From Polaromonas naphthalenivorans CJ2 (GTDB taxonomy: Bacteria > Pseudomonadota > Gammaproteobacteria > Burkholderiales > Burkholderiaceae_C), in contig NC_008759.1 in the NCBI RefSeq assembly GCF_000015505.1, forward strand, positions 62,001 through 126,000: a DNA stretch of 64,000 nucleotides, in the 5' to 3' direction. Under the pieces are notes generated by a model, which worked only from the letters and a program-made list of their open reading frames with translations, searched no databases and was not told where the DNA came from. Numbering within the stretch: the stretch's first letter is position 1; each line of letters opens with the position of its first letter. This document shows positions 14,441-55,107 of this stretch, piece after piece. The translations under genes and the position numbers were made by a program.

Positions 14441-14771
14441 GACAAAGGGGCAGCGCAAGACCTTCTCGCCCTGCGAGTAACACTGAAAAATCACGGCGCA
14501 CCTCAACTTCATCTGACTGCAATGCTTGGCACCCACTCCATTCCCGTTCGTTGCGCCAACTCACCATAGCTCATTGGCCTCCCCGGACACGCGTCAGCAG
14601 AGTTCGAACAGCTTGAACTATAGATTCGGCCCTTTGAAGTCATAAGTTTTTTTGAGCTTCCTTCGAGGGAGGTACTTCACGAAATTTCAAACTTCATTAG
14701 GCTGGAGCAATAATCCTCAACAAGTTGTCTCCCTGCAGCGCGACCTCTGTTAGAGAGGCCGTGCCGCTTTG

Positions 14772-25915: not shown

Positions 25916-26037
25916 GCTGCGGGCTGGCCATGCCCGCCTGGCTTGACCGTGCGCAAACCGCAGAGGCTGGTACGCACCCCGACCCGCCTAGCGAGCTTCC
26001 TCCAGGGGTCCGAAAGTATGAACAGACCCTCAAATTT

Positions 26038-26877
26038 TCAGCTAATGGTTGTCAACCTCTTCGTGGGAGAGCTTTCACCGGGTTGCAGGTCAACGGGTTC
26101 GTTTTTCGGCGCCAAACTTACTGACCAGTGACCCCCCACTTCCTGTTCAGACTTCAGCAAATCGTAGGTCTTGACCATGTCCAGCAAGCCTGAATGTCCA
26201 TAGAGTTTCGGCGAGAAAGCCGGGTCGGTGCGTTTGAGATACTGCCCCAAAAGTCCCATGCCTATTTTTCCTTCCGAGGTATCGCTGGCGAGCAAAGTGA
26301 CCGCATCAACGATGAACCGGGGGCGGCGTTTGATTGAAGGTTTTGGCAATTCAAGCTTTGCAGGCTCCGGCTTCATGGCTATGCACTTTGCCTGCGCTTT
26401 TTCCCAGGGGTCGACTGCAAGCGCTGTTGTCAGTTCGGGTCGTACCCACTCAAAAAACTGGTCGCTCGCGTTGCGTAGCGCGTCAGGAGTCTTCGCCTCT
26501 CCAACGATGCAAACCGTTGCCCCGCGCTCGCGTAGTTTCCGGCACAGGTAAGCGAAGTCAGAATCGCTCGTGACCAGACAAAAGGTGTCGGCCCGGTTAT
26601 CGAACATGGCTTCTAGGGCGTCCAAGGCCAGCGCAATGTCGGCAGTGTTTTTGCCTGAGGCGTACTGGTATTGCAAGCAAGGGGTGAAAGCCAGGCGGAC
26701 CAGCGCTTCTTGCCACTTGTTGGCCAGGGTGGTGTGGTTCCCGTAGCCCCGGCGCAGCACCACGCGCCCGAACTGGGCAATCACGCGCAGGGCGTACTCC
26801 AGAATTTCCGGAGTCACGTTGTCGCAGTCCACGAGAACCGCCACACGCGTTTCGCCAATTGCCACCGCACCGTTCAT
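26038..26877 (-). CDS. NYN-domain (LabA/DUF88-like) protein with OST-HTH/LOTUS-like domain
   Basis: A 279-residue protein. The N-terminal NYN (PIN-like) nuclease fold has the acidic VDCDN at residues 16-20, NTADIALALDA (about 75), TSDSDFAYLCRKLRERG (about 102-118) with the conserved metal-binding Asp residues, and GEAKTPDALRNASDQF. The C-terminal region (about 195-265: SEGKIGMGLLGQYLKRTDPAFSPKLYGHSG) resembles the OST-HTH/LOTUS RNA-binding domain. It is probably an RNA-processing or degrading enzyme. A decayed piece of a related gene is at 14344-14440. Confidence 0.85.
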   Translation of the reverse strand: MNGAVAIGETRVAVLVDCDNVTPEILEYALRVIAQFGRVVLRRGYGNHTTLANKWQEALVRLAFTPCLQYQYASGKNTADIALALDALEAMFDNRADTFCLVTSDSDFAYLCRKLRERGATVCIVGEAKTPDALRNASDQFFEWVRPELTTALAVDPWEKAQAKCIAMKPEPAKLELPKPSIKRRPRFIVDAVTLLASDTSEGKIGMGLLGQYLKRTDPAFSPKLYGHSGLLDMVKTYDLLKSEQEVGGHWSVSLAPKNEPVDLQPGESSPTKRLTTIS

Positions 26878-27035
26878 TTGACAGGCTCCAAAGTTGAGCT
26901 TCCATCATATTCGGCGGCAATGGTTCAACGCCAAGAAAATCCAAACTCCACATTCAGAAAATATCCGCACCAGCACTGCTCGGCTCGCAAAGAAAAGCAA
27001 TGAAATATCGTGCTGTACTTTTTGTTGCATGTGCT

Positions 27036-27183
27036 ATAACGTATATCTATTAGGAATATAAAACGGATACGCTAAATAGCTCATCACGGCACGACCGAAA
27101 AGCAAAACCGAAGCGACATCGCTCAAGATGACCCCCGAGGTCCGGGACTTGTGAGAGCGCTACGCCGCGGCCGAGCACCGCAG
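27036..27183 (+). repeat. 148-bp direct repeat, left copy, flanking DISARM
   Basis: This aligns without gaps to 39353-39500 with about 19 mismatches counted by eye. The coding-like part is almost identical (from the AAAAGCAAAAC segment to GAGCACCGCAG), the upstream part is less so. Both copies contain a TATAT-N9-ATATA dyad (GTATATCTATTAGGAATATA here). Confidence 0.92.
27086..27183 (+). pseudogene. Degenerate 5' end of the small RHH-like gene
   Basis: Compared with the intact gene at 39403, the start codon ATG is ACG (27086-27088) and the Trp codon TGG is TGA (27152-27154). The match stops after the codons for AEHRS, leaving about half a gene. It precedes the DISARM methylase as the intact copy precedes hsdM. 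Confidence 0.85.
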
Positions 27184-27446
27184 TTTTCTACACCGCCGAA
27201 TGCACCCACAGAAATACCGAACAAAACTGATTAAGGCATTTGTGACTCAAGACATATCAAAATTTTTAGATTTGGCCGCGCTATTAATGAAGAGTGCGTT
27301 GGCAAAATTTGGATGGCATGAAAGCTGTGTAAAAACCTCGAATTACCTCAAAAAGTCACCTGGGTGATACGCGAAAGGCTGAAGCTTTAACCTGGAGCCT
27401 CGACAAGAAGAAGTGCTCCCATTCTGGTCAGAAAGAAAAATAATAA

Positions 27447-29201
27447 ATGGTTATTCCAGAGTCAAAAATACGTTTTAACTCGTTAGTTAAATCACTCGAT
27501 ACGATAGCTAAGGATAGTGAAAATGGACCTCAAAGACTTGTAGAAGCTGTTCTTCATGCTTGGCAACTACAGTCCTACCCTTTGCTCGCAAAGCGTGTCT
27601 CCCGCCAGCTTGGTGAATTACCGCTCAAGGATGACGTCAATAAATTTTCCCTGTGGCTTTCGCAGCAAAGCTTTAACGATGCTGCGTTTTGGCTGGCTTC
27701 TGCGTATGCCACATGGGTGGGAGAAAAACGCCGCACGGAGCAAGCCCTCTATTTCACGCCTCCTAAGCTTGCGGACCGGGTCATCGATGACCTGGTTCAG
27801 CGAGGCGCGTCCCTGACCACGGTCCACTGGCATGACCCCGCCTGCGGAGGAGCGGCATTTCTGGTCCCCACGGCGCAGCGCATGGCCCAGGCGCTGGCGG
27901 GCCTCGGGCTTGCCTCGGGGGAGGTCTTGAAAAGGATTGAACGCCAGCTCAGCGGCAATGACCTGGACAAGGCACTCTTGTCGCTATCCCGTCAATTTCT
28001 GCTGATGGCGCTGTACCCGCACATCAAGGCTGCACAGCGGTTTCCCGACTTTGACCTGCGCAACGAGGACGGGCTGTTACCTCCCCCCTCGAAGTACCAA
28101 GCCCCGGACGTTGTCATCTGCAATCCGCCCTACCGAAAGCTCAACGCAGCTGAAACCCAGCGCTACGCCTCGAAGTTTAAAGATGTCATCCGCAGCCAAC
28201 CCAATATCTACGGGCTGTTTATTCGCGAGGCGCTCAACGTGGTCAAGCCCGGGGGCTTGATTGGCTTGCTCACGCCGACCAGTTTTTTATCGGGAGCGTC
28301 TTTTTCCAAGCTGCGCTCACGCATTGTGGATTTATCGCATATTTTGCAGATTGACATGCTGAGCGACCGCACCTCCATGTTCATTGCGGTGGAGCAAGAA
28401 ACGGTCATTTCCGTTTTGAGAGCGCTGCCGACCCTCACGCACGAGGCTATGCCGACGGATATTCATATCCTGACTCCAGGCGGCACCTACGAAAACGTTG
28501 GCAAGCATCGCCTCTGCAATAACGGCGCACCCTGGGCCATCCCCCGGTCTACCGCGGACTCCGCGTTGCTCGACTGCGCCGAGCGGTCAACCGCCCGCTT
28601 GGGTGACTTTGGCTATAGCGCAAGAATTGGCCACCTAGTTGCCTTTCGGGACAAACGACGACGGTTTCCGCAAAAGCCAATGGACGATGCACCCCGCTGT
28701 GTCGTTCCAATTCTTTGGGCTGGCGATATCACCAAGGAGGGGCTGGACCACGGCCGTGTTCAGAAGAAAAACCGCACGGATTATTTCATCGAAGTCTCCA
28801 GCCTAGGCCACACGAGTGTCATCAGCTTGCCTTCGGTTGTTCTGCAGCGGCTGACCTCGAACGACCAGCACCACCGGTTAATTGCGGCCCCGGTGCCCCG
28901 GTGCTGGCAAACCGCACACGGAGGATTCGTGGCAGAAAACCATGTGGTCGTTTTGCAGACACAGCCGGGCAACCGGTGGACTCCGGCGCTCATGGCCAAG
29001 GTGCTCAACTCTGCGGGAATCAATCGCTTGTATCGCTCGATTTCAGGCGCCTCAAATGTTGCCACGTCGGAGCTGCTGGCGCTACCCCTGCCACCGCCCC
29101 GCGAACTGGATGAGGCTTTGTCCAGAACCGAAGACATTGATGAAGCCATACGGATTGCTTTCGGATTGGCCACCCCCGTGACCTTAAGGAAAAAAGCTTA
29201 A
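27447..29201 (+). CDS. drmMI: N6-adenine DNA methyltransferase of DISARM
   Basis: A 584-residue gamma-class-like N6-adenine methylase. The SAM-binding motif DPACGGAAFLV is at about residues 130-140, the catalytic motif CNPPYRKL at about 224-231, and a target-recognition region fills the C-terminal half (CERSTARLGDFGYSARIGHLVAF). It is the first gene of a tight operon with drmA-drmB-drmC. In DISARM the methylase marks host DNA so that the other proteins restrict unmarked DNA. An adenine methylase is the class 1 type. The following gene starts 2 bases after its stop. AT-rich first 30 codons contrast with the GC-rich remainder. Confidence 0.82.
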   Translation: MVIPESKIRFNSLVKSLDTIAKDSENGPQRLVEAVLHAWQLQSYPLLAKRVSRQLGELPLKDDVNKFSLWLSQQSFNDAAFWLASAYATWVGEKRRTEQALYFTPPKLADRVIDDLVQRGASLTTVHWHDPACGGAAFLVPTAQRMAQALAGLGLASGEVLKRIERQLSGNDLDKALLSLSRQFLLMALYPHIKAAQRFPDFDLRNEDGLLPPPSKYQAPDVVICNPPYRKLNAAETQRYASKFKDVIRSQPNIYGLFIREALNVVKPGGLIGLLTPTSFLSGASFSKLRSRIVDLSHILQIDMLSDRTSMFIAVEQETVISVLRALPTLTHEAMPTDIHILTPGGTYENVGKHRLCNNGAPWAIPRSTADSALLDCAERSTARLGDFGYSARIGHLVAFRDKRRRFPQKPMDDAPRCVVPILWAGDITKEGLDHGRVQKKNRTDYFIEVSSLGHTSVISLPSVVLQRLTSNDQHHRLIAAPVPRCWQTAHGGFVAENHVVVLQTQPGNRWTPALMAKVLNSAGINRLYRSISGASNVATSELLALPLPPPRELDEALSRTEDIDEAIRIAFGLATPVTLRKKA

Positions 29202-29203
29202 CC

Positions 29204-32035
29204 ATGTCATATCCCCTCAATCGTATGCAGAACCAGGTTGCTCTTGAAAAAGAAAGACTGATGCAAACGCAGGCCGTCCTCCTGAAAAAGAAGGAGAACA
29301 TCGCCAGGCTCTTGCGCATTGGCGCCAAGCCGTCCTCGGGAGCTCCGGGGGAGCTGCCGGCCAAGGCCCGCGCCGAGAAGCCAAGCCCCGGGCTGTCGGC
29401 AGTCCTGCCGCAGGAGTCCCCCGGCGAGCCCGCACGCGTGGGGGTTGGCTTTGACCTTTACCGGGACATCGACAATGCCCCAATAACGGTGAGCAAGACC
29501 GTTGAGCAGCTGGCCGGCCATCTCCTGCAAATTCCCGCCGACAAGGTGGAGGTCGCCCTGCTCTGGCCCGGTACGCTGCGCAGCCTGGCGTGCCTTCACG
29601 CTGTCTCCACCATTTCAAGGTGGCACAAGGGAGACAAACGGGGAATCCGCACGCTGATATATCCCGCCAGAGCCAACGTGTTTCAGGACCTGAACCACGC
29701 CCAAATCGACCGCCTCGCGCTGGCCAAGCTGTACGCCGAGCTCTACGAGCCCCCGCGCGAGGTGAATCCCAAAGTTTTGGTGCCGTGCCGTGAAAAAGAC
29801 ACCTTTTTTACCTCCCTCAGAAGCGTTCGTTGCGGCGCAGGCATAGCACTGCAGCCCACTATCGGGGAGATACTGCCGCACTATTATTCCGACCAGGAAT
29901 TCAAGGGATGGGCCTCCTGCGCGGGCGACTTGCTCAAAAACTTGAAAACCCGGCTGGGAGACCTGCACCATACCCGGGCGCTCAACATGGACGCCATCCC
30001 GGCCCTCTCCGCCCCGGATTACGCACCTGATGCCCTGTTCGCCCTGGGCTGGCGCAGCGGCGCCGAGGACCTTGAAAAAGCACTGCGAAGCCTTAAAAAG
30101 CTGGGCTCGCCCCATGCCATCTTGGTCGATGTCACCCGGGCTGCGCGCAAGAACAATCCGAAGTGGTTGCGCTCAACGGTGAGGTTTCTCCAAGTGGTTG
30201 CTGACGTGTGGCCCAAGCAGCGGCCCGGCATCTGCATCGTTGCCGACGAGCCGCACTTGCGCAATCAGCTAGTCCAGGAAATGGCTCGACTCGGCGCAAA
30301 AAACGGCGGCGCGACCCTGCCGGCTGGCAGCACCGGGATGGCGCTGCATGGGTTTCCCTGCGCCACTACAAAGGACGGGTTTCTCCCCGCCGGCGCAGCT
30401 GAGGCGCTGACGCCCCAGGCCCGGGACATACAGGTGGCCTTTACCGACACAGAGGCTGCCAAGCTCATTGGCCAGGTGGACAGGCTGAAAAAGGCAACTT
30501 CGAACCCGGGCAGCCAGGAGTTGCTGGGCAAGGTGTCGCGTTACCTGTCCCAGCTCTCTGCGCTTCCCTCCAGCACGCGGGTGCTCTCGGAGTGGCTCAA
30601 TCAAACCGGCATGCCCATGGCAGTGCGGGAGCAGTACGCCTGGCCCAGCTATCGGTCCAAGTTGCGCGTGCTCCTCCAGGACCCGGGGTATGCGGACAAG
30701 ACGCGGCTTGAAGGCGTGATTAAAAAGTGCGACGCGATGTGGCTCGCGTATGAAAAGGGCACTCCGTTTGCCCGGCAATTGGCCAATCTCCTGGACAAGC
30801 ACACAGGCGGCACGGAGCGCTGTTGCGTGGTGTTTACCCGGCCCACGGCCAAGCGTCTGGCCGAGCGCTATTTCGAAACGTACGACGGTTATCCGCAAGG
30901 CGCAGGTTTTGAGGTTTTGAAGGACCGCGTGCGCATGGTGGTGTCTGGCTCGCCTTCAGCAGAGCTGGGACTGCGCGAGAACGAGACTGTCGTTTTCGCC
31001 GGGCTTGATGAGAATTCGCTGCGCAGCCTGATGCTGGAGGACGGGATTTCGGCGCGTACGCACTTGCTGCTCACCACGAGGAACGCGGCTTACCTCAAAG
31101 CCACGCTGGCGGTCATCGACGCGATGCCCGCCTTCAAGGACCTGGGCCCACGCGTCACGGGCCTGCTCAAGCAGCTGCCGGAGTTTCCCGAGCCAAGTGA
31201 CCGCCAATTCCTTGCCCGCGAAGACTTTGTGCTTCCCGCCTTTTCCTTTGAGCAGGCACTGGCCACGCAAAGCCAGGACGAGGAGAGCAAGGACCCAGAC
31301 GCGTGGGAGCTGGTCCTGGAAAACGGGCGGTCCGTGCGGCGCAGCCCGGGCGCGAAGGTCTATATTTTCGACCCCCTCTACGGATACACGCAAACCCGGG
31401 GATTTCGAGGCGTGGGCGTGCAGGACCTGCAGGCCGGTCAGCGCCTTTTCGTCATGTCCGGTGAACTGCGCGAAGCGACCGAGGCAGCTCTGCGGGATGC
31501 GGGGGTGGACGTTAGCCACGACAAGCAGTTTGAAGCGTCCCTGCATCACTACCATAACCGGGTGCTTCGCGGTATTGCTGAGACCTTGAAAAAGGCAACG
31601 CTCCTCGAACAGGCGCGTGAGCTGCGCGAGCGGCTCATCGCTGCGCCAGACGCACCCCAAGGGTTTCCCGCCGAGGGTTCCATCCGGCACTGGCTGGACG
31701 TAGCGGGCCATATGAGCGCAAATTTTCAGGAGCAGACCAGCCAGGCGCCCCGGCAGGCCGCGCACTTCAGTGCCTTCGCAAAGGTCATCGGGTTTAGTGC
31801 CTTGGAAACTGTCTATTTCTGGAAAGCTGTCATCCAGCCCCTTCGGGGCGCAAGGCGGGCAGACGGGCGCCGCGTCTCAGACGCCTACTCCGACATGCTG
31901 ATGGAGCCCGAGTCGGTCGTCGTCCATAAAAAAATGAAGCCCGAAGTCGTTTCGTACCTTTTCTCTCGTGCCGAGGAAAACGTGTATTCCATCGAAGCCA
32001 TCAAAAAACCTCACTCAAGGGAACTAAATGCCTGA
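29204..32035 (+). CDS. Large DISARM-associated protein of unknown function (943 residues)
   Basis: I do not recognise a domain here. It lies between the methylase and drmA, overlapping drmA by 8 bases. The N-terminus has a coiled-coil-like QVALEKERLMQTQAVLLKKKENIARLL, then a Pro/Ala-rich linker to about residue 75. The body contains alternating strand/helix segments resembling a decayed or remote helicase/P-loop fold (RGIRTLIYPAR, PGICIVADEPHL, CCVVFTRPTAKRLAERYFE, ETVVFAGLDENSLRSLML), but no Walker A and no DEAD/DEAH box. There is no SNF2 motif set, so it is not class 1 DrmD. By position and size it could be a DrmE-like protein, known otherwise from class 2 DISARM with a cytosine methylase. 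Real gene: certain; function: unknown. Confidence 0.8.
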   Translation: MSYPLNRMQNQVALEKERLMQTQAVLLKKKENIARLLRIGAKPSSGAPGELPAKARAEKPSPGLSAVLPQESPGEPARVGVGFDLYRDIDNAPITVSKTVEQLAGHLLQIPADKVEVALLWPGTLRSLACLHAVSTISRWHKGDKRGIRTLIYPARANVFQDLNHAQIDRLALAKLYAELYEPPREVNPKVLVPCREKDTFFTSLRSVRCGAGIALQPTIGEILPHYYSDQEFKGWASCAGDLLKNLKTRLGDLHHTRALNMDAIPALSAPDYAPDALFALGWRSGAEDLEKALRSLKKLGSPHAILVDVTRAARKNNPKWLRSTVRFLQVVADVWPKQRPGICIVADEPHLRNQLVQEMARLGAKNGGATLPAGSTGMALHGFPCATTKDGFLPAGAAEALTPQARDIQVAFTDTEAAKLIGQVDRLKKATSNPGSQELLGKVSRYLSQLSALPSSTRVLSEWLNQTGMPMAVREQYAWPSYRSKLRVLLQDPGYADKTRLEGVIKKCDAMWLAYEKGTPFARQLANLLDKHTGGTERCCVVFTRPTAKRLAERYFETYDGYPQGAGFEVLKDRVRMVVSGSPSAELGLRENETVVFAGLDENSLRSLMLEDGISARTHLLLTTRNAAYLKATLAVIDAMPAFKDLGPRVTGLLKQLPEFPEPSDRQFLAREDFVLPAFSFEQALATQSQDEESKDPDAWELVLENGRSVRRSPGAKVYIFDPLYGYTQTRGFRGVGVQDLQAGQRLFVMSGELREATEAALRDAGVDVSHDKQFEASLHHYHNRVLRGIAETLKKATLLEQARELRERLIAAPDAPQGFPAEGSIRHWLDVAGHMSANFQEQTSQAPRQAAHFSAFAKVIGFSALETVYFWKAVIQPLRGARRADGRRVSDAYSDMLMEPESVVVHKKMKPEVVSYLFSRAEENVYSIEAIKKPHSRELNA

Positions 32036-35000
32036 CTTGTTAATGCGTGCCGACCCGCTGACGATTTCAACAGCGCTGAAAGAAGCCGTTGTGGACGCTT
32101 TGGTGAACCTGACGTTTCAGCGCATCAGCGGGCACGGCCCCGAAGGCAGCATCCTTTTCGGGGCCCGGCCTCGCGCTTTGCTGAGCTCGGCCTTTTTACT
32201 GCCTGTGCCCGCCGGCGCGGCGGGAGGTGACGAGGTCACCCAGCCCATTCAAATCTGTGCCCATGGCTTGGACTTTCAGGTTAGCACGTCCAGGCAGGGG
32301 CCTGTCGTTGTCCAGCCCCGCCTACAGGTTTACGTGCGGGTCTTGCCTTCGGTGGAGGACATGGCCCGGCCCGACTGCGTCCTGCGCTTTCGCCTGAACG
32401 ATGTCACGCGCCGGGACCTTCAGGCCAAGGTGTCTGCCGCGTTGAAAGCAAAGTGGGCTGAGATGATGGGCACGTACAAGCGCCGGGTGGACCACCCCGG
32501 CTGGAAGACGGCCGAGGACGAAATCCGCACGCGGATTCACGCGGATTTAGGCTTGCCACGGGACCTGAAAACGCTTTTCAGCGAAGAACCGGAGGATGCG
32601 TCTGATGAAGAAGGGGCCAGCGCAAATGTGGCGGAAGATGGCGCGGCGGAAGAAGGGTTCACGGTGCCGGGGGCCTCAGCCCCAGAGCTTACCCTCAAGG
32701 ATTCCCAGTTCCAGCCCATGGACATTCCGCACAAGTGGCTCCGGCTGCCTTTGCCGCAGGATGCCCTGCCGACTTTCATCCTGGACCCCCAGCAGGACAA
32801 GAGCGGGTTGCGCGAAGCTTGTGAACTGGCGGCCAGCGCGCTCAACGGCGCCATCGGTACGGCTCTGCTGGCGTGGGCGACGAGTCCAGAGGGGCTGGCC
32901 TGGGGCTTTCGCACGGGCATCAAAGTCTATCCGTCTGAATACAAGGGATGGGCAGCATTCTTGGAAAAAGTACGTGCGTCGGGCAAACCCGTCGCCTTGC
33001 CTGCGATTAAGCTAGGGTGGGACGCCCGTGTCTCGCCAGATTGGCTGGACCCCGCGCGCGCCAGCGTCCATGTGTCGCTGGAGAATCGTTCGGAGCCTCC
33101 GAAGAAGAATCGCGACGAGACGGACGATGCGGTGTTTCAGGTGGACGTTACCGCGACCTTGCCACGCGCGCTGCACCGACCGCTCAAACTCGGGCGGGTC
33201 GAGGCGTCCTACCGCTACAACAAGTACCTGGACTACCCCGCCACCGGCTTTAACGGCGGCGTTGAGGTTCTGCACAGTGAGAACCCCCAGGTGCTGACGC
33301 TGCGCACGACCTGGTCGCCTCGCTACACCCAGCCGCGGATTGTTCCCAAGTCATACACCGCGGTGAACCCGCACATCCGGGCTTTGAGCGAACCGCAAGG
33401 CCTGGCCGGCTTGCTTCTCTTGGGCGAGGAGCTCGATGCCTGGCTGGCGACACTGCCCAGCAAGGTGCATCTCCAGGAGGGCCTCTCGGCAGATGACGTC
33501 CCCGGCCTGCTGCGCGAGCAAGGCGGCTTTGCCGCAGACACAGAGTCCTGGAAGAAGGAAATCCAAGCCATTCATGCAGGCCTTCGAATCCTGAAGGAGT
33601 CCAAGGCCGAGTGGGACAAGACCAAGAAGCGGGGGCCGCAGTCGAGCGACAAGGCCGCGGTCTATGAGGCCTGGCTCGCCATGAACGAAACCATGGCCGA
33701 GCTGATGAAGGAGAAGCTTCCCGATGACAGCGGCGCCTGGCGTTTGTTTCAGATTGCCTTTATCGTGGCCAACGTGCCAGCCATTGCGAGCCGAATGAAG
33801 TGTTTTGGTCATGAGTTCGACAGGGAGCGGGACGACACGGTGACCTTGCTGTACTTCGCAACGGGCGGGGGCAAATCCGAGGCGTTTTTCGGACTCCTGG
33901 TGCTCAACCTGTTCTTTGACCGCTTGAGGGGGAAAAAGACGGGCGTGACCGCCATGCTGCGCTATCCGCTGCGCTTGCTCACCATCCAGCAAGCCCAGCG
34001 CTGCGCCCGGGTCCTGGCCAAGGCCGAGCTGGTCCGCCGCAAGCACGGGCATGGCGGCGACGCGTTTGCCCTTGGCTTTTGGGTCGGCAGCGGCGGCTCT
34101 CCCAATCACCCCGGCGCACCCGGCATGGACCTCATCCCCCCCGTGGAGAAGGAGCCCCCTACCGCCAAAGGTGAAGCTGCGCTGCTGCAGACCGACGTGA
34201 ACTACGAGCTGCAAAAAGCTGCCTGGAACAAAATTCCGAACTGCCCCTTTTGCAAGGCTGACACCGCCCTGCGCCTGTTCCCGGCGCTCGGAGGCACGCT
34301 GGCGCATGTCTGTACCAGCGCCAGCTGCGCTTCAAACATTGGAGGCTGGCAACCCCTTCCCTTTTATATCTGTGACAGTGACATCTACGACCTGGCCCCG
34401 TCCGTTTTGCTCGGCACCGTTGACAAGCTGGCGCTCATTGGCCAGTCCGCAAAAACCCTTCGCCGTATTTACGGCATGCTAGGTGCGGCCCCCTGGCGTC
34501 ACAAGGCAACGGGCCGGCTGAGGGTGCCGCAGCAACCCAAGGAATTCGCAGGAGGCCCCGCAGCCCACGGATGCGAGGGCCTGTTTCCCGCCTATCCCGA
34601 TGGCATCAAGCTGTTTCACGACCCCTTTCCCAGCCTGCTGATTCAGGACGAGGCGCACTTGCTGGACGAGTCGCTGGGCACCTTCGCGGGCCTGTTTGAG
34701 TCGGCGCTGGACGCTATTTTGGCCGAGATGAGCAAGCCGCTGCACGCGCTGGTGACGTTCGAGCCAGACGGGCAGACACGCCGGCGGGCCAAGGTCATTG
34801 CAGCTTCTGCGACGGTCTCCGAGCCCCAGCGCCAGATGGAGCACCTATACCAGCGCCCCGTGCCTGCGATGCAGTTCCCGTTTCCGGGGCAAAGTCTGTA
34901 CGAATCGTTCTATGCCGGGCCGAAGGCGCCATCGCCTCAAGACACGGGGCGGGCTGCTTTTGCCACCCGTGACATTGAAAAATGGGCAAGCTGGAGCCGT

Positions 35001-36260
35001 GTGTATGTGGCGTTCATGACCAACGGGCGGCCTCATACCGCGACCACGGTGTCGGTGCTGTCTAACTTTCACACGCTTATTTCTGAGTTCTTGATGGGGA
35101 TGGCGTCCGGGGACACGCCGCGAATTGAGGCCTTGCGCGCTCGGCTGACAGCAGGTGTTTCAGAAGGCCCCCTCTGCGCGATGTACGTCGCCCAGCTTGA
35201 AGCGGCCACAGACTCCGAATTGGCTACGCTCATCGATTTGCACCGCATCGCGCTGACCTACGTCACCAACAAAAAGGGCGGTGACCAAATCATGGCGGCT
35301 GAGTTTGAGGAGACGCGAAAGCGGCATGCCGACCGGGGCCTTGCCATGGGCGACTTGAAAACCAAGTTGATTTCGGGCTCGGTGTCCCAAGGGGACATCC
35401 AGCACACTATCGAAGACGCGCAACGCCGGCCCGCGCCAGGGCACCCCATGGGCGAGCTGGGCGACGTGCTGCGCTCGGTCATTGCCACCTCCTCCATCTC
35501 CCACGGCGTGGACGTCGATGAGTTCAACGCCATGTTCTTTGCGGGCATGCCTTCGGACATCGCCGAATACATCCAGGCGTCTTCTCGGGTCGGACGCACG
35601 CATGTGGGCTTCATTGTGCTCATTCCCACCCCGCAGCGCCGGCGGGACCGCTACATCGTGGAAGTGTTCGACAGCTTTCATCGATTCCTGGAGCGCATGG
35701 TTCAGCCGGCGGCCATCGACCGCTGGGCCGGCAAGGCCATCGAACGCGTACTTCCCAGTTTCATCCAGACGTATCTCACCGGCGTGCGGTACATGTCAGA
35801 TATCACCTGGGCGGAGCCTGAGGACAAGGAAAACGTCGCGAGCCTGGACTGGATTCCCAGCATCATCCGGGAACTCAAGCAGGAGGCGTCAAAGAAAAAG
35901 CTTGTCGACGGCCTGTGCCGGTTTATTGAGCGAGCCATTGGCCTGAATAACGGAGATTTTGCACCGGGGGGCAAGGAGCACTACAGCGCACTGGTGCGGG
36001 ACAAAGTTTATGACTTGCTAAACGGCTGGGCCAGCAACGACCTGCAGGCAGAGCAGAGCCTGTTCGAGTACTTCCGGGAGCAAACCAGCGTGATGAACCG
36101 GCCCATGACCTCCCTGCGCGACGTCGATGAGATGGCCAATATCCATTTCGGCGGAAAGGACCTCAACGGCAGGAGGCTGGAGACCGAGCTCGCTCGCAAA
36201 GTGATGATATTTATCCGGCATGGGGTTGCGCAAAGTGACGTAAGGGGAGAAGGACAATGA
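32028..36260 (+). CDS. drmA: DISARM helicase DrmA
   Basis: A 1410-residue superfamily 2 helicase. About 600 N-terminal residues precede Walker A ATGGGKSEA (about 610-618); then come the Ia motif MLRYPLRLLTIQQAQR, a Cys-rich insertion CPFCKADTALRLF (about 742), the DEAH box IQDEAHLLDE (about 871), motif III AASATVSEPQRQ (about 925), motif V ATSSISHGVDVDEFNAMFF and motif VI QASSRVGRTHVGF (about 1183). The long N-terminal extension and this motif set are typical of DrmA, which with DrmB forms the core complex that loads on unmodified DNA ends. It ends in an ATGA overlap with drmB. Confidence 0.93.
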   Translation: MPDLLMRADPLTISTALKEAVVDALVNLTFQRISGHGPEGSILFGARPRALLSSAFLLPVPAGAAGGDEVTQPIQICAHGLDFQVSTSRQGPVVVQPRLQVYVRVLPSVEDMARPDCVLRFRLNDVTRRDLQAKVSAALKAKWAEMMGTYKRRVDHPGWKTAEDEIRTRIHADLGLPRDLKTLFSEEPEDASDEEGASANVAEDGAAEEGFTVPGASAPELTLKDSQFQPMDIPHKWLRLPLPQDALPTFILDPQQDKSGLREACELAASALNGAIGTALLAWATSPEGLAWGFRTGIKVYPSEYKGWAAFLEKVRASGKPVALPAIKLGWDARVSPDWLDPARASVHVSLENRSEPPKKNRDETDDAVFQVDVTATLPRALHRPLKLGRVEASYRYNKYLDYPATGFNGGVEVLHSENPQVLTLRTTWSPRYTQPRIVPKSYTAVNPHIRALSEPQGLAGLLLLGEELDAWLATLPSKVHLQEGLSADDVPGLLREQGGFAADTESWKKEIQAIHAGLRILKESKAEWDKTKKRGPQSSDKAAVYEAWLAMNETMAELMKEKLPDDSGAWRLFQIAFIVANVPAIASRMKCFGHEFDRERDDTVTLLYFATGGGKSEAFFGLLVLNLFFDRLRGKKTGVTAMLRYPLRLLTIQQAQRCARVLAKAELVRRKHGHGGDAFALGFWVGSGGSPNHPGAPGMDLIPPVEKEPPTAKGEAALLQTDVNYELQKAAWNKIPNCPFCKADTALRLFPALGGTLAHVCTSASCASNIGGWQPLPFYICDSDIYDLAPSVLLGTVDKLALIGQSAKTLRRIYGMLGAAPWRHKATGRLRVPQQPKEFAGGPAAHGCEGLFPAYPDGIKLFHDPFPSLLIQDEAHLLDESLGTFAGLFESALDAILAEMSKPLHALVTFEPDGQTRRRAKVIAASATVSEPQRQMEHLYQRPVPAMQFPFPGQSLYESFYAGPKAPSPQDTGRAAFATRDIEKWASWSRVYVAFMTNGRPHTATTVSVLSNFHTLISEFLMGMASGDTPRIEALRARLTAGVSEGPLCAMYVAQLEAATDSELATLIDLHRIALTYVTNKKGGDQIMAAEFEETRKRHADRGLAMGDLKTKLISGSVSQGDIQHTIEDAQRRPAPGHPMGELGDVLRSVIATSSISHGVDVDEFNAMFFAGMPSDIAEYIQASSRVGRTHVGFIVLIPTPQRRRDRYIVEVFDSFHRFLERMVQPAAIDRWAGKAIERVLPSFIQTYLTGVRYMSDITWAEPEDKENVASLDWIPSIIRELKQEASKKKLVDGLCRFIERAIGLNNGDFAPGGKEHYSALVRDKVYDLLNGWASNDLQAEQSLFEYFREQTSVMNRPMTSLRDVDEMANIHFGGKDLNGRRLETELARKVMIFIRHGVAQSDVRGEGQ

Positions 36261-38521
36261 GCTATTCACACAAGGCCAAGACTGCGGCGGGCGCGGAGAT
36301 TCAGCCGCCCAAGGCACCTCCGATGACCCGGTCTCGAAGCCAGGTTGCCACGGCCTATGCGCCCGGTGCTCTTTTCACCTTCGAGGGCGGCTTAGGCGCC
36401 TGCTTGGCCATCCCGGACCAGCAAGAGCGGCAAACGCCTGCGGATATCTCCAAGGAGACGGCCGAGCAGATTCATCTGCGGGTGCGTGAGGTCTGGCAGA
36501 ACTGGTTCAACCGGGCCAGCACTGGAGGCACCGACAAGCACGCTGCATTGCCCGGGCAGTGCCTTGACCTCATGCTGCTGCGCGAAGGCCGGTACCACGC
36601 CCCGTCCCCGTCCCGCTTCGAGCTGGTGGACCCGCTGCAGATGGGCTACGTTCCCGCGCCGCTGGCCTTTGTCTGCAACGTTTGCCAGCGATTCAGGAGT
36701 TTTACTTCGGTCAAGGCCGCGGCTGACGGGCTCTCTGGCCTGGCGGGCGAGCCCTGCGGTGCAACGGGCCCCGAGCACACGGGAAAGTGCCGCTGGCGCC
36801 AGCTGGACGTGGTGTTCATCCACTGGTCTGGAGCTTGGGAGCCGCCGAGCCCCGGCAGGTGGGAATGGCGTGCCAGCACGGAAAAGCGTCCCGGTCAACT
36901 CCACGAACCGATGGGCCGATGCTGGTGTGGCAGCGAAAAATTTTATCTGCGGGACAACTCGCCACGCATCGGCCAGTGGTTCTTCCAGTGCGACGCAGGT
37001 CACAAAGACGGCGACAGCTGGATTCAAAACGACCCGGTCACCACCGAACTCCTGGGTGACCAGGGCACGGCCAGGCCGCCGCGGTGGCGGCGAATGGAGC
37101 CCATCTCCTACCGGGCGTCTGCTGTGTTCTATCCGCACACCGAGCAGTTCGTCGTGTTCTCAAAAGAGCAGAGCAGCCTGCTGCGGCTGCTACAGGAGGG
37201 CAAGCACCAGGAACTGGCCGCTTTCGTTGCGGAGCGCTACGGGATGGGGGCCGTCGTGCCGACGGCGCAGAGCATGCTCGAGACGCTTCGCGCGGGCGGA
37301 GAGCAGCACAGGCACAAGGTCCAGGACTATGAAAGTATTGCGCTGATGCTGAGCAACCCGCTGATGCAGGCTAACCCCGACATGGCCCGGATGCTGGAAA
37401 AAAGCCTGGAGGACAAGGCTCAGGACTGGCGAAATACCCCGGGGCTCATTCCCGTGGACCGCGAAATACCGCCATTGCTCTTGAGCCAGGCGCAGCTCAG
37501 GGCCGAGTTCGGCAGCCGCTACGACCCCTTCACCCTGGCCGTGGAGCACGAAGCGCTGAACCGAAGCAAGCTGTCTGCAACCGCGGGGCTGGAGGGGCGC
37601 GCGCCCTTTGTGCGGTTCAACCACTTGGACAAGGACTTGTCGCCCAGCACCGAGGCCCTGCGCACGGAGCAGCAGCAGGCCACGACGCGCCTGATGGGAC
37701 TGCTGGGGATGGCAGAAATCGGCCTGATTCGGGAGTTCGACCTATGCCGATTCACGCATGGCTTTACCCGGATGTCCAGCGAGCCCCTGATTGAAAAGAA
37801 CGACAGCGGTCAGGCGGTTCACTATCCGGTGCGGCTCAATTTGTTCCCCACCTTGGGTAACGGCAAGCGGCCCGTCTATGTGGTCACGCAGGCCAACGAA
37901 GCTATCTATGTGCGGCTGCGCCCGGAACTGGTCTATGCCTGGCTCAAGGGAGTCGGCGTTGGCGACCTGCCCGAATGGGACCCGGCGGGCCCGCTGAAGT
38001 TCGGCGCCCACCTGCTTCAGCTGGCACGTCCCTTCGGAAAGTATTTTTCTGAGCTTCACCCCGGGCCCGCTTCGACGTACCGCTACGTCTACACGCTGCT
38101 GCACACCTATGCGCATGTGTTCATGAAGTCCATTTCGGAGTATTCGGGCCTGGACCTGGGCTCGCTCAGCGAGTACCTGTTCCCGGCCGATATGGCCTTC
38201 GTGGTGTACCGCAACGGCACGACGATGGACCTGGGCAACCTGTCTGCCCTGTGGCGCAACTTTAACAACATCTTCCTGGAGCACCTGCTGGCATCGAAGA
38301 CGCTCATGTGCGGCTCCGGCAGTCTGTGTGACACCAATCCCCACAAGCCGGGGGCATGCCCTGACTGCGTGATGGTTCCCGAGACGTCGTGCCTGGCGAG
38401 CAACCAGCTGCTGTCCCGCGCAGTACTGCGTGGCGGCCCGGCCCCTCGGGAAGACAAGGACCACCAAGGGCAGGAAATCCCTGGCTTCCTGGACATGGCG
38501 CACGCACATGCCGCAGCTTGA
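36257..38521 (+). CDS. drmB: DISARM protein DrmB (DUF1998)
   Basis: A 754-residue protein that partners DrmA. Cysteine clusters that probably bind zinc occur at about 135-180 (CNVCQRF, then C-x-G-P-E-H-T-G-K-C) and 218-250 (RCWCGSEKF, FQCDAGH). The C-terminal DUF1998 region (about 610-720) has HTYAHVFMKSISEYSGLDLGSLSEYLF and the cysteine-rich block GSLCDTNPHKPGACPDC. DrmB contacts the DrmA helicase and gates DNA entry in the known complex. The start overlaps the drmA stop and the end overlaps drmC by 14 bases. Confidence 0.93.
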   Translation: MSYSHKAKTAAGAEIQPPKAPPMTRSRSQVATAYAPGALFTFEGGLGACLAIPDQQERQTPADISKETAEQIHLRVREVWQNWFNRASTGGTDKHAALPGQCLDLMLLREGRYHAPSPSRFELVDPLQMGYVPAPLAFVCNVCQRFRSFTSVKAAADGLSGLAGEPCGATGPEHTGKCRWRQLDVVFIHWSGAWEPPSPGRWEWRASTEKRPGQLHEPMGRCWCGSEKFYLRDNSPRIGQWFFQCDAGHKDGDSWIQNDPVTTELLGDQGTARPPRWRRMEPISYRASAVFYPHTEQFVVFSKEQSSLLRLLQEGKHQELAAFVAERYGMGAVVPTAQSMLETLRAGGEQHRHKVQDYESIALMLSNPLMQANPDMARMLEKSLEDKAQDWRNTPGLIPVDREIPPLLLSQAQLRAEFGSRYDPFTLAVEHEALNRSKLSATAGLEGRAPFVRFNHLDKDLSPSTEALRTEQQQATTRLMGLLGMAEIGLIREFDLCRFTHGFTRMSSEPLIEKNDSGQAVHYPVRLNLFPTLGNGKRPVYVVTQANEAIYVRLRPELVYAWLKGVGVGDLPEWDPAGPLKFGAHLLQLARPFGKYFSELHPGPASTYRYVYTLLHTYAHVFMKSISEYSGLDLGSLSEYLFPADMAFVVYRNGTTMDLGNLSALWRNFNNIFLEHLLASKTLMCGSGSLCDTNPHKPGACPDCVMVPETSCLASNQLLSRAVLRGGPAPREDKDHQGQEIPGFLDMAHAHAAA

Positions 38522-39356
38522 CTCGACCTTTGCAGTGCTGGCCAAGCATTCTGAGCTGCTAGAGCCCGTGCTGGGACTGGCGAGCAAAGGACTGCTCCGG
38601 GGCCCAACATCCCTGGGCAGCCTTGCGGGAAGGGCAGGCATCTCCCTGGCCAAGCTTCCGGAACTCGCGCGCGCCCTGCGGGCCGGCGCTGGCGCAGCGG
38701 TCTTCAGTGAAGCATCCATGGGTCAGTGGCATCTGTCGTGCTCGCCGGCTGTAGCGGCGGACCTTGCGCTCATGCTTCGGGGGCTGAACGTTTACCGCCA
38801 GCGCGTTCACGAAGACCGGGACCGAGTGACGGCCGTCATCTCGAAGCCGGCCGAGCCGAGCCAGTTCACGGGCACCCTGGAGAAAACGCTCGAGGGCTTT
38901 CGGGGGCTCGAAACCACGGCCGAGGCGCTGATAGACCTGGCGCATCGTGCTCAGCGCCGGTTTACGGTGATGTCGCCCTTCGTGGACAGCTCTGGGCTGG
39001 ACCGGCTGGTGGTGCTGTTCGGTGAGACAGGACCTGCCGTACGGCGCGAGCTGATTACTCGCCGGCCCTTCGACGTGGCGGTAGCGCCTCGCCTGCCTGA
39101 GCTCCAAGCGCTGGGCGTGCAAGTCTATGACTTCAGAATTGCACAAGAAAGGGCGGGCAGGAACGAGACGTTTCATGCCAAAGCGGTGCGCGTTGACGAG
39201 GACGAGTGCTACGTCGGCTCCTCCAACATGAACGAATGGTCCTTTCACTACTCCCTGGAGCTAGGCTTCAATGTAAAGGGCCGGGCCGCAAATCGGATAT
39301 CGCAGGTGCTGGACGCCGTTATCGAAGTTTCTGCGGTTGTTCATCTGGCAACATAA
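38508..39356 (+). CDS. drmC: DISARM phospholipase-D-like protein DrmC
   Basis: A 282-residue PLD-family protein with the HxK half-site FHAKAVRVDEDECYVGSSNMNEWSF (from about residue 221), where His and Lys, with the following Ser/Asn/Glu residues, form the active site. Upstream LAHRAQRRFTVMSPFVDSSGLD (about 140-165) is the first half of the PLD fold. DrmC is a presumed nuclease, often dispensable. The start MPQLDSTF at 38508 is preferred because the upstream part of the open frame translates drmB out of frame. Its stop codon lies inside the 148-bp repeat that borders the locus. Confidence 0.88.
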   Translation: MPQLDSTFAVLAKHSELLEPVLGLASKGLLRGPTSLGSLAGRAGISLAKLPELARALRAGAGAAVFSEASMGQWHLSCSPAVAADLALMLRGLNVYRQRVHEDRDRVTAVISKPAEPSQFTGTLEKTLEGFRGLETTAEALIDLAHRAQRRFTVMSPFVDSSGLDRLVVLFGETGPAVRRELITRRPFDVAVAPRLPELQALGVQVYDFRIAQERAGRNETFHAKAVRVDEDECYVGSSNMNEWSFHYSLELGFNVKGRAANRISQVLDAVIEVSAVVHLAT

Positions 39357-39500
39357 CGTATATCCATTAGCAATATAAAAGCACCATGCTAAATAACTCA
39401 CTATGGCCCGTCCCAAAAGCAAAACAGAAGCGACATCGCTCAAGATGACCCCCGAGGTCCGGGACCTGTGGGAGCGCTGCGCCGCGGCCGAGCACCGCAG
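39353..39500 (+). repeat. 148-bp direct repeat, right copy
   Basis: This is the intact counterpart of 27036-27183. It starts at the drmC stop codon and includes the promoter region and first 33 codons of the small RHH-like gene before hsdM. The dyad-containing segment here is GTATATCCATTAGCAATATA. Confidence 0.92.
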
Positions 39501-39609
39501 CCTCACCAACATGTTTGAGGTCATGGTGCGCGAGCACGCCAAGAAGCTCAAGCTCAAGCCGGCCCCCGTGCCTGCGGTCCCACCCACCCAACCAACAGAT
39601 AACAAGTAA
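39403..39609 (+). CDS. Small ribbon-helix-helix-like protein upstream of hsdM
   Basis: A 68-residue protein that starts MARPKSKTEATSLKMTPEVRDLWERCA. A short basic N-terminal strand followed by two helices (PEVRDLWERCAAAEHRSLTNMFEVMVREHAKKL) is the pattern of CopG/Arc-type RHH DNA-binding proteins; a Lys/Pro-rich tail follows. Nine bases separate it from hsdM. It could repress the hsd operon through the TATAT-N9-ATATA dyad just upstream, which is inference. The same 5' segment is present, broken, before the DISARM operon. Confidence 0.7.
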   Translation: MARPKSKTEATSLKMTPEVRDLWERCAAAEHRSLTNMFEVMVREHAKKLKLKPAPVPAVPPTQPTDNK

Positions 39610-39618
39610 TCCTAGGAT

Positions 39619-41442
39619 ATGGCTCAAAATTTCTCAGAACTCGCAAATTTCGTCTGGTCCGTCGCCGACCTCCTGCGCGGTGACTACAAAGCCGCCGATT
39701 ACGGCAAGGTCATCCTTCCGCTGACTCTCCTGCGCCGCCTGGACTGCGTGCTCGAAGGCACCAAAGAACAGGTTCTTGAGGAGCATGCCAAGCACAAGGG
39801 CGAAGGCGACGCCCCTACCAGCCTTGACCGCATCCTCAAACGCAAAAGCAAGCAGGCCTTTTACAACACCAGCCCCTTCACGCTGCAGACCCTGCTCGAT
39901 GACCAGAAGCACATTCGCCAGAACCTGACGGCCTATATCGGCGAGTTTTCGGCCGACGCCCGTGACGTGTTCGAGCGTTTCAAATTCCTCGAACGCTTAG
40001 TGGAGCTCGATGACAAGGACCTGCTGTTCCTGCTCATGCAGAAATTCGCCAGCATTGACCTGCACCCGGATGCCGTGCCCAATGAAACCATGGGCCTGGT
40101 GTTCGAGGAGCTCATCCGCAAGTTTGCCGAGGCGTCCAACGAAACAGCCGGCGAACATTTCACCCCGCGTGAGGTTATCCAACTCATCGTGCATTGCCTG
40201 TTTTCCGGGGACAGCGAAGCGCTATCCAAGCCGGGCGTGGTGCGCTCGATGTACGACCCCACCGCCGGCACGGGCGGCATCTTGTCCGTGGGCGAGGCGG
40301 TGGCCCGCTCCATCAACAAATCGGCCAAAATGGTGCTGTTCGGCCAGGAGCTTAACGATGAGTCGTATGCCATCTGCAAGGCCGACATGCTCATCAAGGG
40401 TCAGGACCCCAAGAACATCGTGCGCGGAAACACCCTGTCGGCAGACGGCTTCCCTGACGAGAAGTTCGACTACGGCGCGGCCAATCCTCCGTTCGGCGTC
40501 GACTGGAAGAAAGTACTTGACCCTATCAAGACTGAGCACGAGACAAAAGGCTTTGCCGGTCGCTTCGGCCCGGGCCTTCCACGCGTATCAGACGGCTCCC
40601 TGCTTTTCCTGATGCACCTGATTTCCAAGATGCGCCCTGCTGCCGAAGGCGGCGGCCGTATTGGCATCGTTCTGAACGGCTCACCCCTCTTCACAGGGGA
40701 CGCCGGTTCCGGGGAATCGGAAATCAGGCGTTGGCTGCTCGAAAACGACATGTTGGAGGCCATCATTGCGCTGCCCAACGACATCTTTTTCAATACCGGA
40801 ATCGCCACCTACATTTTTATCTTGGATAACGACAAGAAAGCTGACCGTAAGGGAAAGGTCCAGCTCATCGACGCCACGCGCATGTACACCAAGATGAAAA
40901 AGAGCCTTGGCAACAAACGCGTGCGCATCACGGACGAGCAGATTTCCGAAATCGTGGGCGTCTACTCCGCGGGTGCCAAAGATGCCAACTTCGAGCTGGA
41001 GTTCAAAGAGCCGGTGAAATCGACTGGCGGCAACCCGGCCGAGGCACCGGCCCTCCGGATTGTGTCCAAGGTCTTTGAAAACAAATTCTTCGGCTACCGC
41101 AAGGTGACGGTGGACCGCCCCCTGGCAGAAGGCAAGACTGGCAAATTCAAAAAGGGCGAGAAGGCCTTCGATAAGGACCTGCGCGATACGGAGAGCGTGC
41201 CGCTCACCGAGTCGATTGACGCGTACTTCAAGCGAGAGGTGCTGCCGCATGTGCCCGACGCCTGGGTGAACAAGGACGTCAAGGACGAAAAGGACGGTCT
41301 TCCGGGCAAGGTTGGCTATGAAATCAATTTCAACCGGTACTTCTACGTCTACAAGGCGCCGCGCAAGCCGGCGGTGATTGCAGAAGAAATTCTGGAGATG
41401 GAGAAGCGGTTTGTGGAGCTGATGAAGGGGGTGGTGGCGTGA
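39619..41442 (+). CDS. hsdM: Type I restriction-modification methylase subunit HsdM
   Basis: A 607-residue N6-adenine methylase subunit. The helical N-terminal domain (ADLLRGDYKAADYGKVILPLTLLRRLD) is typical of HsdM. GEHFTPREV is at about 178, the SAM motif DPTAGTGGIL at about 213-222 and the catalytic NPPFGVDW at about 290. It pairs with HsdS to methylate the recognition site and with HsdR to restrict. The stop overlaps the GTG start of hsdS by 4 bases. Its GC content and codon use match hsdR, from which it is now separated by 7 kb. Confidence 0.95.
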   Translation: MAQNFSELANFVWSVADLLRGDYKAADYGKVILPLTLLRRLDCVLEGTKEQVLEEHAKHKGEGDAPTSLDRILKRKSKQAFYNTSPFTLQTLLDDQKHIRQNLTAYIGEFSADARDVFERFKFLERLVELDDKDLLFLLMQKFASIDLHPDAVPNETMGLVFEELIRKFAEASNETAGEHFTPREVIQLIVHCLFSGDSEALSKPGVVRSMYDPTAGTGGILSVGEAVARSINKSAKMVLFGQELNDESYAICKADMLIKGQDPKNIVRGNTLSADGFPDEKFDYGAANPPFGVDWKKVLDPIKTEHETKGFAGRFGPGLPRVSDGSLLFLMHLISKMRPAAEGGGRIGIVLNGSPLFTGDAGSGESEIRRWLLENDMLEAIIALPNDIFFNTGIATYIFILDNDKKADRKGKVQLIDATRMYTKMKKSLGNKRVRITDEQISEIVGVYSAGAKDANFELEFKEPVKSTGGNPAEAPALRIVSKVFENKFFGYRKVTVDRPLAEGKTGKFKKGEKAFDKDLRDTESVPLTESIDAYFKREVLPHVPDAWVNKDVKDEKDGLPGKVGYEINFNRYFYVYKAPRKPAVIAEEILEMEKRFVELMKGVVA

Positions 41443-42677
41443 GCGGGTGGGCGCAGACGCGACTTCGCTATGTGACCGACCTCAATCCTCCGGTTCGTGC
41501 TGACTTACTTGCGGCGCTTGACACGGAACTTTCTTTCCTGCCAATGGACTCCATTGGCGAAAACGGTTCGTTGAATCTTGCGCGAACCCGTCCCATCGCA
41601 GAAGTTCGAAACGGGTATTCATACTTCGAAGACGGAGATGTTGCGTTTGCCAAAGTAACGCCGTGTTTTGAAAACGGTAAGGGTGCGCTCATGCAGGGCT
41701 TGGAAAAGGGCGCTGGCTTTGGAACAACTGAAATAACTGTACTTCGTCCAAAGACCGGGACAAACGCAAGGTACCTACGTTATATCGTTCAAAGTGAAAT
41801 GTTTCGGCAACTTGGTGTCGGCGCAATGACGGGTGCTGGCGGCCTAAAACGAGTGCCTGACGACTTCACACGAGACTTTAAGACTGTCTGGCCCGAGGCA
41901 GTAGCCCAAGAGCGCATCGCCAACTTCCTTGACGACAAAACAGCGCGGATTGATGCTTTGATTGCGGAGAAGGAGCGGCTTTTAGCGCTGCTTAATGAGC
42001 ATCGGCTGTCAGTTTCGGCGCAAGTCCTGGCCGAAGCATCCAGCGGACTTCGGGCGAAGTTAGGCTTTTGTGTTGACCTTCTTCCGGGCTATGCGTTTCC
42101 CAGCGATGAATTCAGTCGCGATGCGGGAAACATTCCGCTTCTGCGAGGTATAAACGTCGCTCCAGCCAGCATTCGCTGGGATGAAACCGTCTATTGGTCC
42201 CGTGAATACGATAGTTCGCTCGAGCGATTCAGGCTGCAACAGGGTGACGTCGTACTTGGCATGGACCGCCCCTGGATTTCTTCCGGTGCTCGTGTCGCCA
42301 TGATTGACGAAGCTTCAGCCGGTTCCTTTCTCCTTCAGCGGGTATGCCGACTTCGTGGGGGAGTGAGGCTGACCCAGCGATTTTTGTTCTTCGCCCTCTT
42401 AAGCGATGAGTTTCGGCAGTCTGTTGAAGTGGACTTAACGGGAGTCAGCGTCCCGCACCTAAGCCCGGAGCAAATTCTGCGCTTCAAGGTGCCTGTATTG
42501 ACAGTTGATGAGCAGAGGGTACGCTGTGACGTAGCTGACCGGCAACTCTTAAAAATTGAGCAGTTGGAAGCGCATACCCTTCAAATGCTTGACCGCCTCC
42601 GCGAGTACCGCTCCTCTTTGATTTCAGCGGCGGTGACGGGGCAGTTGGACTTTGACGCGCTTGAGGTGGCCGCATGA
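41439..42677 (+). CDS. hsdS: Type I specificity subunit HsdS
   Basis: A 412-residue specificity subunit starting with GTG inside the hsdM stop (GTGA). It has two target-recognition halves, each followed by a helical conserved region: ERIANFLDDKTARIDALIAEKERLLALLNEHR (about 160-192) and the C-terminal QLEAHTLQMLDRLREYRSSLISAAVTGQLD. The TRD parts define the DNA sequence, which cannot be read from the protein. The lower GC of the TRD segments (for example 41520-41850) compared with hsdM is usual for exchangeable specificity domains. Confidence 0.94.
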   Translation: MSGWAQTRLRYVTDLNPPVRADLLAALDTELSFLPMDSIGENGSLNLARTRPIAEVRNGYSYFEDGDVAFAKVTPCFENGKGALMQGLEKGAGFGTTEITVLRPKTGTNARYLRYIVQSEMFRQLGVGAMTGAGGLKRVPDDFTRDFKTVWPEAVAQERIANFLDDKTARIDALIAEKERLLALLNEHRLSVSAQVLAEASSGLRAKLGFCVDLLPGYAFPSDEFSRDAGNIPLLRGINVAPASIRWDETVYWSREYDSSLERFRLQQGDVVLGMDRPWISSGARVAMIDEASAGSFLLQRVCRLRGGVRLTQRFLFFALLSDEFRQSVEVDLTGVSVPHLSPEQILRFKVPVLTVDEQRVRCDVADRQLLKIEQLEAHTLQMLDRLREYRSSLISAAVTGQLDFDALEVAA

Positions 42678-55106: not shown

Positions 55107-55107
55107 C

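Follow-up and report, generated by a model that had tools for sequence, protein, structure and literature searches.

How bacterial defence islands assemble, and how their systems stay quiet until needed, are open questions, and the closest described counterparts of the locus reported here are small regulators encoded beside defence genes. BrxR, a WYL-domain protein, is described near many defence systems, with 164 of 347 counted within 50 kb downstream (PMC9122601). RptR is described as a small first-gene repressor of type I restriction–modification (R-M) operons with conserved promoter sites, an all-helical dimer that binds TAGCTA and is found most frequently next to type I R-M (54 of 117); genes lodged between hsdS and hsdR also figure in that account (PMC12255303). 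The DefensePredictor report places ribbon–helix–helix (RHH) proteins among the three commonest domain families of uncharacterized predicted defence clusters (PMC13092281). Here, we describe a 64,000-nucleotide window of Polaromonas naphthalenivorans CJ2 (contig NC_008759.1, positions 62,001 to 126,000), in which an operon of DISARM (defence island system associated with restriction–modification) lies between two 148 bp direct repeats. Both repeat copies are the leader of a 68 aa RHH-like regulator gene, comprising an operator-like element followed by the initial 33 codons.

In common with BrxR and other WYL regulators, the encoded protein is a small first-gene regulator with inverted repeats in its own promoter, and its family is found near many defence systems (PMC9122601). 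It differs from BrxR, as described there, in being a 68 aa RHH-like protein rather than a helix-turn-helix–WYL protein, and in having its defence operon mostly directly downstream; the repression proposed here is putative. None of the 15 Pfam families that matched one or more of 48 family members is a WYL family. With RptR (PMC12255303) it shares its place as the small first gene of type I R-M operons with a conserved promoter element, whereas the present family is provisionally taken to be RHH and stands at the head of five or more kinds of system; this distinction is drawn from the published description of RptR. The family also resembles the TacA/DUF1778 RHH antitoxins, through weak profile similarity and because one source names relatives ‘DUF1778 family’, but a defence operon stands behind the gene, and as hsdM begins 9 bp later no toxin gene lies directly behind it. 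The 148 bp leader repeat is likewise unlike the 16–20 nt direct repeats that the YprA paper describes around integrase-bearing elements (PMC12458937). We found no description in the open-access literature of an RHH family at the head of Wadjet, Zorya, DISARM and R-M operons.

Self-comparison of the window aligned positions 27036–27183 and 39353–39500 over 148 bp without gaps (87.2% identity, E 9e-46), and the roughly 19 mismatches counted in an earlier, sequence-only reading of this DNA proved to be exactly 19. This pair is by far the longest direct repeat found in 26900–39700, the runner-up being 32 nt at 78%, and its alignment scored 182 bits compared with at most 25.6 bits in 200 shuffles of the right region. 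As that reading had noticed, the right copy begins at the drmC stop codon, TAA at 39354–39356, which is also the first TAA of its operator-like element, and it contains the start of the RHH gene before hsdM; the gene itself continues to 39609. The left copy is broken in the two ways reported, with ACG in place of the ATG start codon (27086–27088) and TGA in place of TGG (27152–27154). Alignments of DrmC with two homologues extend to a few residues short of its end, indicating that the protein is full length, and the right leader therefore adjoins the native end of the DISARM operon, the join falling exactly at the operon end.

A DISARM-free RHH–hsdM relative with a single repeat copy, which the sequence-only reading had predicted, was found in Polaromonas sp. 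Bin2_6 (L013 and L141 are one contig). This empty site has one leader, an intact RHH gene, hsdM and hsdS, without DISARM and without the 263 bp spacer that precedes the operon in the window. Bin2_6 matches window positions 26623–27180 at 91% and 39353–41980 at 91%, and the two matches have 145 bp in common there, corresponding to the leader (4642–4786). DISARM most likely entered an older RHH–hsd operon at its promoter region, as had been proposed from the sequence; the opposite pattern, of many DISARM loci with an intact RHH gene and no empty sites, was not what we found. Within the DNA examined around them, other RHH–hsdM loci (L015, L018, L019, L020 and plasmid L076) each have one RHH gene, no DISARM and different left flanks. 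Of the relatives with this locus, the nearest belongs to Polaromonas, in the same genus group, and the others are Comamonadaceae and their kin.

A three-way comparison of the leaders revealed a mosaic. At 10 sites the left copy agrees with the empty site and the right copy is different, all of them at leader positions 13–56; at 13 sites left and right agree and the empty site is different, 12 of them at positions 84–148. An arrangement as extreme arose in 2 of 100000 permutations. The first 39 bp of the left copy agree fully with the empty site; the right copy has 8 differences there. The match to the hsd empty site covers the 155 bp preceding the left copy as well as its 5′ part, which places the left copy in the native hsd leader position. 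All seven changes private to the left copy fall in 49–148 and none in 1–48, the operator part, a distribution that fits gene decay with the operator part retained and is suggestive only. Such a mosaic is hardly expected from two simultaneous copies drifting evenly; a crossover between the native leader and a second allele fits it best.

The element upstream of the RHH gene resembles TAACGTATATCCGTTNGGNATAT, with inverted half-sites TAACG and CGTTA (TAACG-N6-CGTTA). Of its 21 positions, at least 17 match in 14 of 19 leaders; L021 and L077 score 13, and L099, L111 and L024 score 10–11, compared with a mean of 10.9 and a maximum of 15 for shuffled upstream DNA (1.1% reach 14); these scores are partly circular, because the consensus was derived from the same leaders. 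A scan of the 5.37 Mb host genome is less circular: with up to two mismatches allowed, the pattern occurred at three places, all with 0 mismatches and each a leader, namely before DISARM (where the RHH gene is broken), before hsd and before Zorya, and a reversed control pattern matched once. A hairpin of the element as folded single-stranded DNA was rejected, the right copy forming none and the left copy a weak one no better than shuffles. Carriage of the leader by phages was also discarded, as none of 27 pattern stretches in viral contigs was a relative.

We consider it probable, by some distance short of certainty, that DISARM entered by recombination at a shared leader and that the intact RHH protein now represses both operons through the retained elements. 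In this model, the DISARM operon and its 263 bp spacer (27184–39352) would have been inserted at the leader of the older RHH–hsdMSR operon by homologous recombination between two leader alleles, most simply through a single crossover of the native leader with a donor molecule, circular or tandem, in which a leader flanked DISARM. The product would carry a left leader with a native 5′ and a donor 3′ part, and a right leader with a donor 5′ and a native 3′ part. The RHH protein is envisaged as an autorepressor that binds the conserved inverted half-site element upstream of its own gene; since the left copy retains the element and has lost the gene, the intact RHH gene at 39403 would control DISARM and hsd together. 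Such shared repression is plausible, and the Zorya-linked RHH paralogue elsewhere in the genome possibly joins in the control of both operons. The leader, which marks the junction through which a 12 kb system was added, would then serve both as a common switch and as the homologous stretch through which defence operons stack. Several types of defence within a single genome thus seem to be connected by a small regulator and a common operator.

Other histories could leave two leaders around DISARM. Two independent RHH-headed operons, leader–operon X and leader–hsd, may have become neighbours, with DISARM later replacing X at breakpoints outside the leaders, so that the left copy would be the remains of the leader of X and DISARM itself would have required no crossover between leaders. 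RHH-headed operons do adjoin elsewhere, as AlbA_2 and Zorya do at L014 and as Wadjet and a helicase do, back to back, on plasmid L077, and replacement of X would explain the allelic difference between the two 5′ parts; we nevertheless regard this history as unlikely, given that the left copy occupies the native hsd leader position, as judged from its 5′ part and the preceding 155 bp, and that drmC joins the right leader exactly at the operon end.

Reversing the direction of change is, in our estimation, more doubtful still. If the ancestor were leader–DISARM–leader–hsd and Bin2_6 had lost DISARM by recombination between the leaders, the empty-site leader should keep the 5′ part of the left copy, as it does, but its 3′ part matches neither copy. 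The other RHH–hsdM loci (L015, L018, L019, L020, L076) also lack DISARM before the leader, which makes one gain simpler, an argument that is indirect because their left flanks differ. Foreign DNA flanked on either side by a direct repeat also recalls the target-site duplication of a transposon or integrase-borne element. Usual target duplications are far shorter than 148 bp, this repeat is a leader common to many loci, and no recombinase was recognized among the five main open reading frames (ORFs) of the insert, with smaller ORFs outside the scan and the 943 aa protein without an assigned domain. The mosaic, in which the two copies are not evenly diverged, further disfavours a simple duplication, and we give this origin very little credence. 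Entry of DISARM by recombination between leaders accounts best for the arrangement.

The leader is not confined to hsd and DISARM. The search for other cassettes behind it, suggested by the sequence-only reading, succeeded: besides hsd, the same leader precedes Wadjet, Zorya, AlbA_2 and type III R-M. A search of the protein collection at E 1e-3 gave 305 relatives of the 68 aa protein, which from its residue pattern we take to be an RHH regulator, and 31 of 48 family members show weak similarity to TacA1 of Pfam (best E 0.0043, below cut-off). The same RHH gene heads type I R-M, type III R-M, Wadjet, Zorya and DISARM in Comamonadaceae and their kin, and homologues at greater distance precede additional defence genes. 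We surveyed 41 loci: 18 close (the window, 13 homologue loci, the Zorya leader of the same genome, two of five plasmid records and L099), 15 more distant (13 among the best of one search and two of another) and eight matches outside the family. Left out were seven short DNA matches (L006–L012, 24–51 bp), second RHH copies in G871, W01 and W02, weaker matches, and L097, L098 and L103, which share contigs with L020, L022 and L024; L109, which reaches a contig end, was dropped, leaving 40 assessable loci.

A defence gene was next, or in the following operon, at 36 of the 40 loci (17/18 close, 12/14 distant and 7/8 outside the family), an assignment that rests on mixed evidence and was made unblinded. 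The kinds behind RHH genes are type I R-M, type III R-M, Wadjet, Zorya, DISARM, S37-type helicase, HKD-SNF2 and DrmD-like genes, DUF499, DpdE, and a Dam-type or orphan methylase. Positives include the weak cases L025 (a 69 bp hsdM remnant), L104 (a lone-looking methylase) and L024 (a decayed RHH gene), and the mixed cases L105 (a Pfam helicase next, DpdE second) and L106 (hsdS and hsdR behind unidentified ORFs). The misses are L014 (AlbA_2 next, then Zorya), L102, where the next two genes are unmatched and the third matches PRTase_III-A, L160, and L114, which was judged from ORFs alone and unscanned. As a control we took 15 RHH_1 genes, seven of them in the same genome, each with only 1.5 kb of flank; ten proteins from eight of the loci were scanned, and six loci with no notable downstream ORF were scored as misses. 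The scan gave one R-M methylase (L168) and two TnpB-like matches to Cas12f models (L174, L176); L175 resembles L174. The control count is thus 1/15, or 4/15 with the TnpB-like matches (Fisher p 1e-8 and 1e-5, respectively); restricted to the eight scanned loci, p is 3e-5 (1/8) and 0.003 (3/8).

Two observations touch on the margins of this survey. At L102 (4057–9976), the RHH homologue precedes a mostly unassigned operon with HAD-like, PRTase_III-A-like and ORC-CDC6-like genes, a candidate for an unknown defence system. Among L156–L163, more distant RHH genes elsewhere in the class, R-M genes follow in 7/8, and several carry a different promoter repeat, by eye similar to CAGTACATT.

Stacking is seen again in Rhodoferax (L014, 9951–20053), where an intact RHH gene, an AlbA_2 gene, a decayed RHH fragment and Zorya ABCD form a second stacked pair. 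The fragment (11669–11743) was detected at the protein level only (E 1e-4 in a search of that locus), with no DNA-level match between the two heads; it occupies the position of Zorya's own RHH gene in L096 and L115, and the AlbA_2 gene may be an added defence or regulatory gene. On plasmid L077, Wadjet and a helicase each have an RHH head, and the two heads stand back to back. In the RHH tree, the L077 Wadjet head groups with helicase heads (99/99), apart from other Wadjet heads, and the starred branches (only 5 of 25 inner branches) require at least two label changes each for hsd, Wadjet, S37 and HKD heads. By eye, a 754/542 aa gene pair beside the empty site (left end of L141) resembles the pair after the Zorya operon of the window's own genome (right end of L096); the 833 aa member of the latter matches ZacB (E 2e-14).

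As a wider and distinctly more tentative proposal, an RHH-like regulator with its operator may be the portable head of many unrelated defence operons of Burkholderiales and, distantly, of others elsewhere in the class. Because the head is conserved, operons could recombine into each other there and stack behind it into one regulon under whichever RHH copy is intact, and the regulator would therefore double as a docking site for island building. If so, the leader could serve as bait for new defence systems; large genes without an assigned function occur in some RHH-headed operons.

Several observations weigh against entry through leader recombination and joint repression. The exact empty site is known from one genome only. 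In their 3′ halves the left and right copies are approximately 95% identical, whereas right copy and empty site differ by approximately 15%; this calls for a donor very closely related to the recipient, for subsequent gene conversion, for a further leader exchange or for overwriting of the leader at the empty site. The half-sites are imperfect in the window, CGTTA reading CATTA in the right copy and TATTA in the left, and a scan detected no sigma-70-like promoter on the + strand in either leader region, such sites being no commoner than in shuffles. No RHH (MetJ/Arc) profile scored above its curated cut-off (the best, TacA1 at E 0.004–0.01, gave P0001 16.2 bits against a required 21), and profile searches of the PDB gave no clear structural relative, one TrpR-like match standing at E 0.72. 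Labels also cluster on the RHH tree, with 14 changes against a shuffled mean of 17.2 and a value as low in 0/200 shuffles, which indicates that heads tend to remain with their systems.

Related DISARM loci bear unevenly on the second suggestion of the sequence-only reading, that both cassettes once carried the same leader. In its favour are the non-native allele of the right 5′ part and the arrangement in Polaromonas sp. C04 (L024), where DISARM is immediately preceded by this RHH gene in decayed form. Against it, the DISARM locus L139, with a drmMI 39% identical to that of the window, has no RHH gene. The broken gene of C04 also counts against operator control, as its best operator-like match (11/21) is at chance level.

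Features of the locus are collected in Table 1. The operon combines a drmA helicase, drmB and drmC with a DNA methyltransferase, the gene combination by which DISARM is recognized. DISARM class 1 comprises drmD (an SNF2 helicase), a methylase, drmA, drmB and drmC, and the last four are found here in the same order; in contrast to class 1, no DrmD model matched any of the five genes (for the methylase, among the best 25 of 34 families), and a conserved 943 aa protein lies between methylase and drmA.

Table 1. Features of the DISARM–hsd locus, in window coordinates
Feature	Position	Strand	Remarks
Left flank common with the empty site	26623..27035		5′ part of NYN gene and intergenic DNA
Left leader copy	27036..27183	+	Operator-like element 27037–27058, then broken RHH start
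Spacer, left leader to drmMI, 263 bp	27184..27446	+	Absent from the empty site
drmMI-like adenine methyltransferase, 584 aa	27447..29201	+	Eco57I / N6_Mtase; named by position and gene order
943 aa protein without known domain	29204..32035	+	Between drmMI and drmA; conserved in L103 (= L024) and L139
drmA helicase	32028..36260	+	PADLOC E 1e-74; NCBIfam DrmA E 3e-91, under its cut-off
drmB	36257..38521	+	PADLOC E 7e-13; NCBIfam DrmB E 7e-12, under its cut-off
drmC (PLD)	38430..39356	+	PADLOC E 2e-9; ORF as listed
Right leader copy	39353..39500	+	Operator-like element 39354–39375 and first 33 RHH codons
Intact RHH-like regulator gene, 68 aa	39403..39609	+	
hsdM	39619..41442	+	
hsdS	41439..42677	+	
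hsdR	49722..52829	+	

The methylase was named drmMI from its position and the identical gene order in L024 and L139, because PADLOC puts type II methylase models first; no DrmMI model was among its best 25 of 34 PADLOC families. Relatives of drmMI were found in 25/249 genomes at E 1e-3, and besides the genome itself only G131 gave a strong match (39%, E 3e-116), the remaining 23 being at E 5e-14 or weaker. A Stutzerimonas plasmid (H6), which its methylase suggested as a DISARM relative, was set aside because it is annotated as type II R-M. The 943 aa protein is 34–35% identical to its counterparts in L103 and L139 and matched nothing significantly in Pfam, PADLOC, NCBIfam or the PDB (HAD reached E 0.014 in two of the three members); it is maybe a component of a DISARM subtype without drmD. 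The true start of drmC is probably later than that of its ORF. The 263 bp spacer gave, apart from itself, one weak 40 bp match in one genome among 121 searched.

The type I R-M set behind the right leader is complete, in the rightward order hsdM, hsdS, hipA and hsdR. Gabija (GajB, GajA) was matched by PADLOC at 20892–25192, to the left of the DISARM–hsd block, and Wadjet III at 52891–60431 (JetA, JetC and JetD; JetB was not looked for). Together with DISARM, the type I R-M genes and hipA, these two systems make the window a dense defence island. The Gabija block is itself enclosed by a 103 bp direct repeat (79%, 14344–14446 and 26016–26116), the right copy of which lies at the 3′ end of the NYN gene, and an inverted repeat joins 4986–5749 and 16833–17591 (91% over 765 bp).

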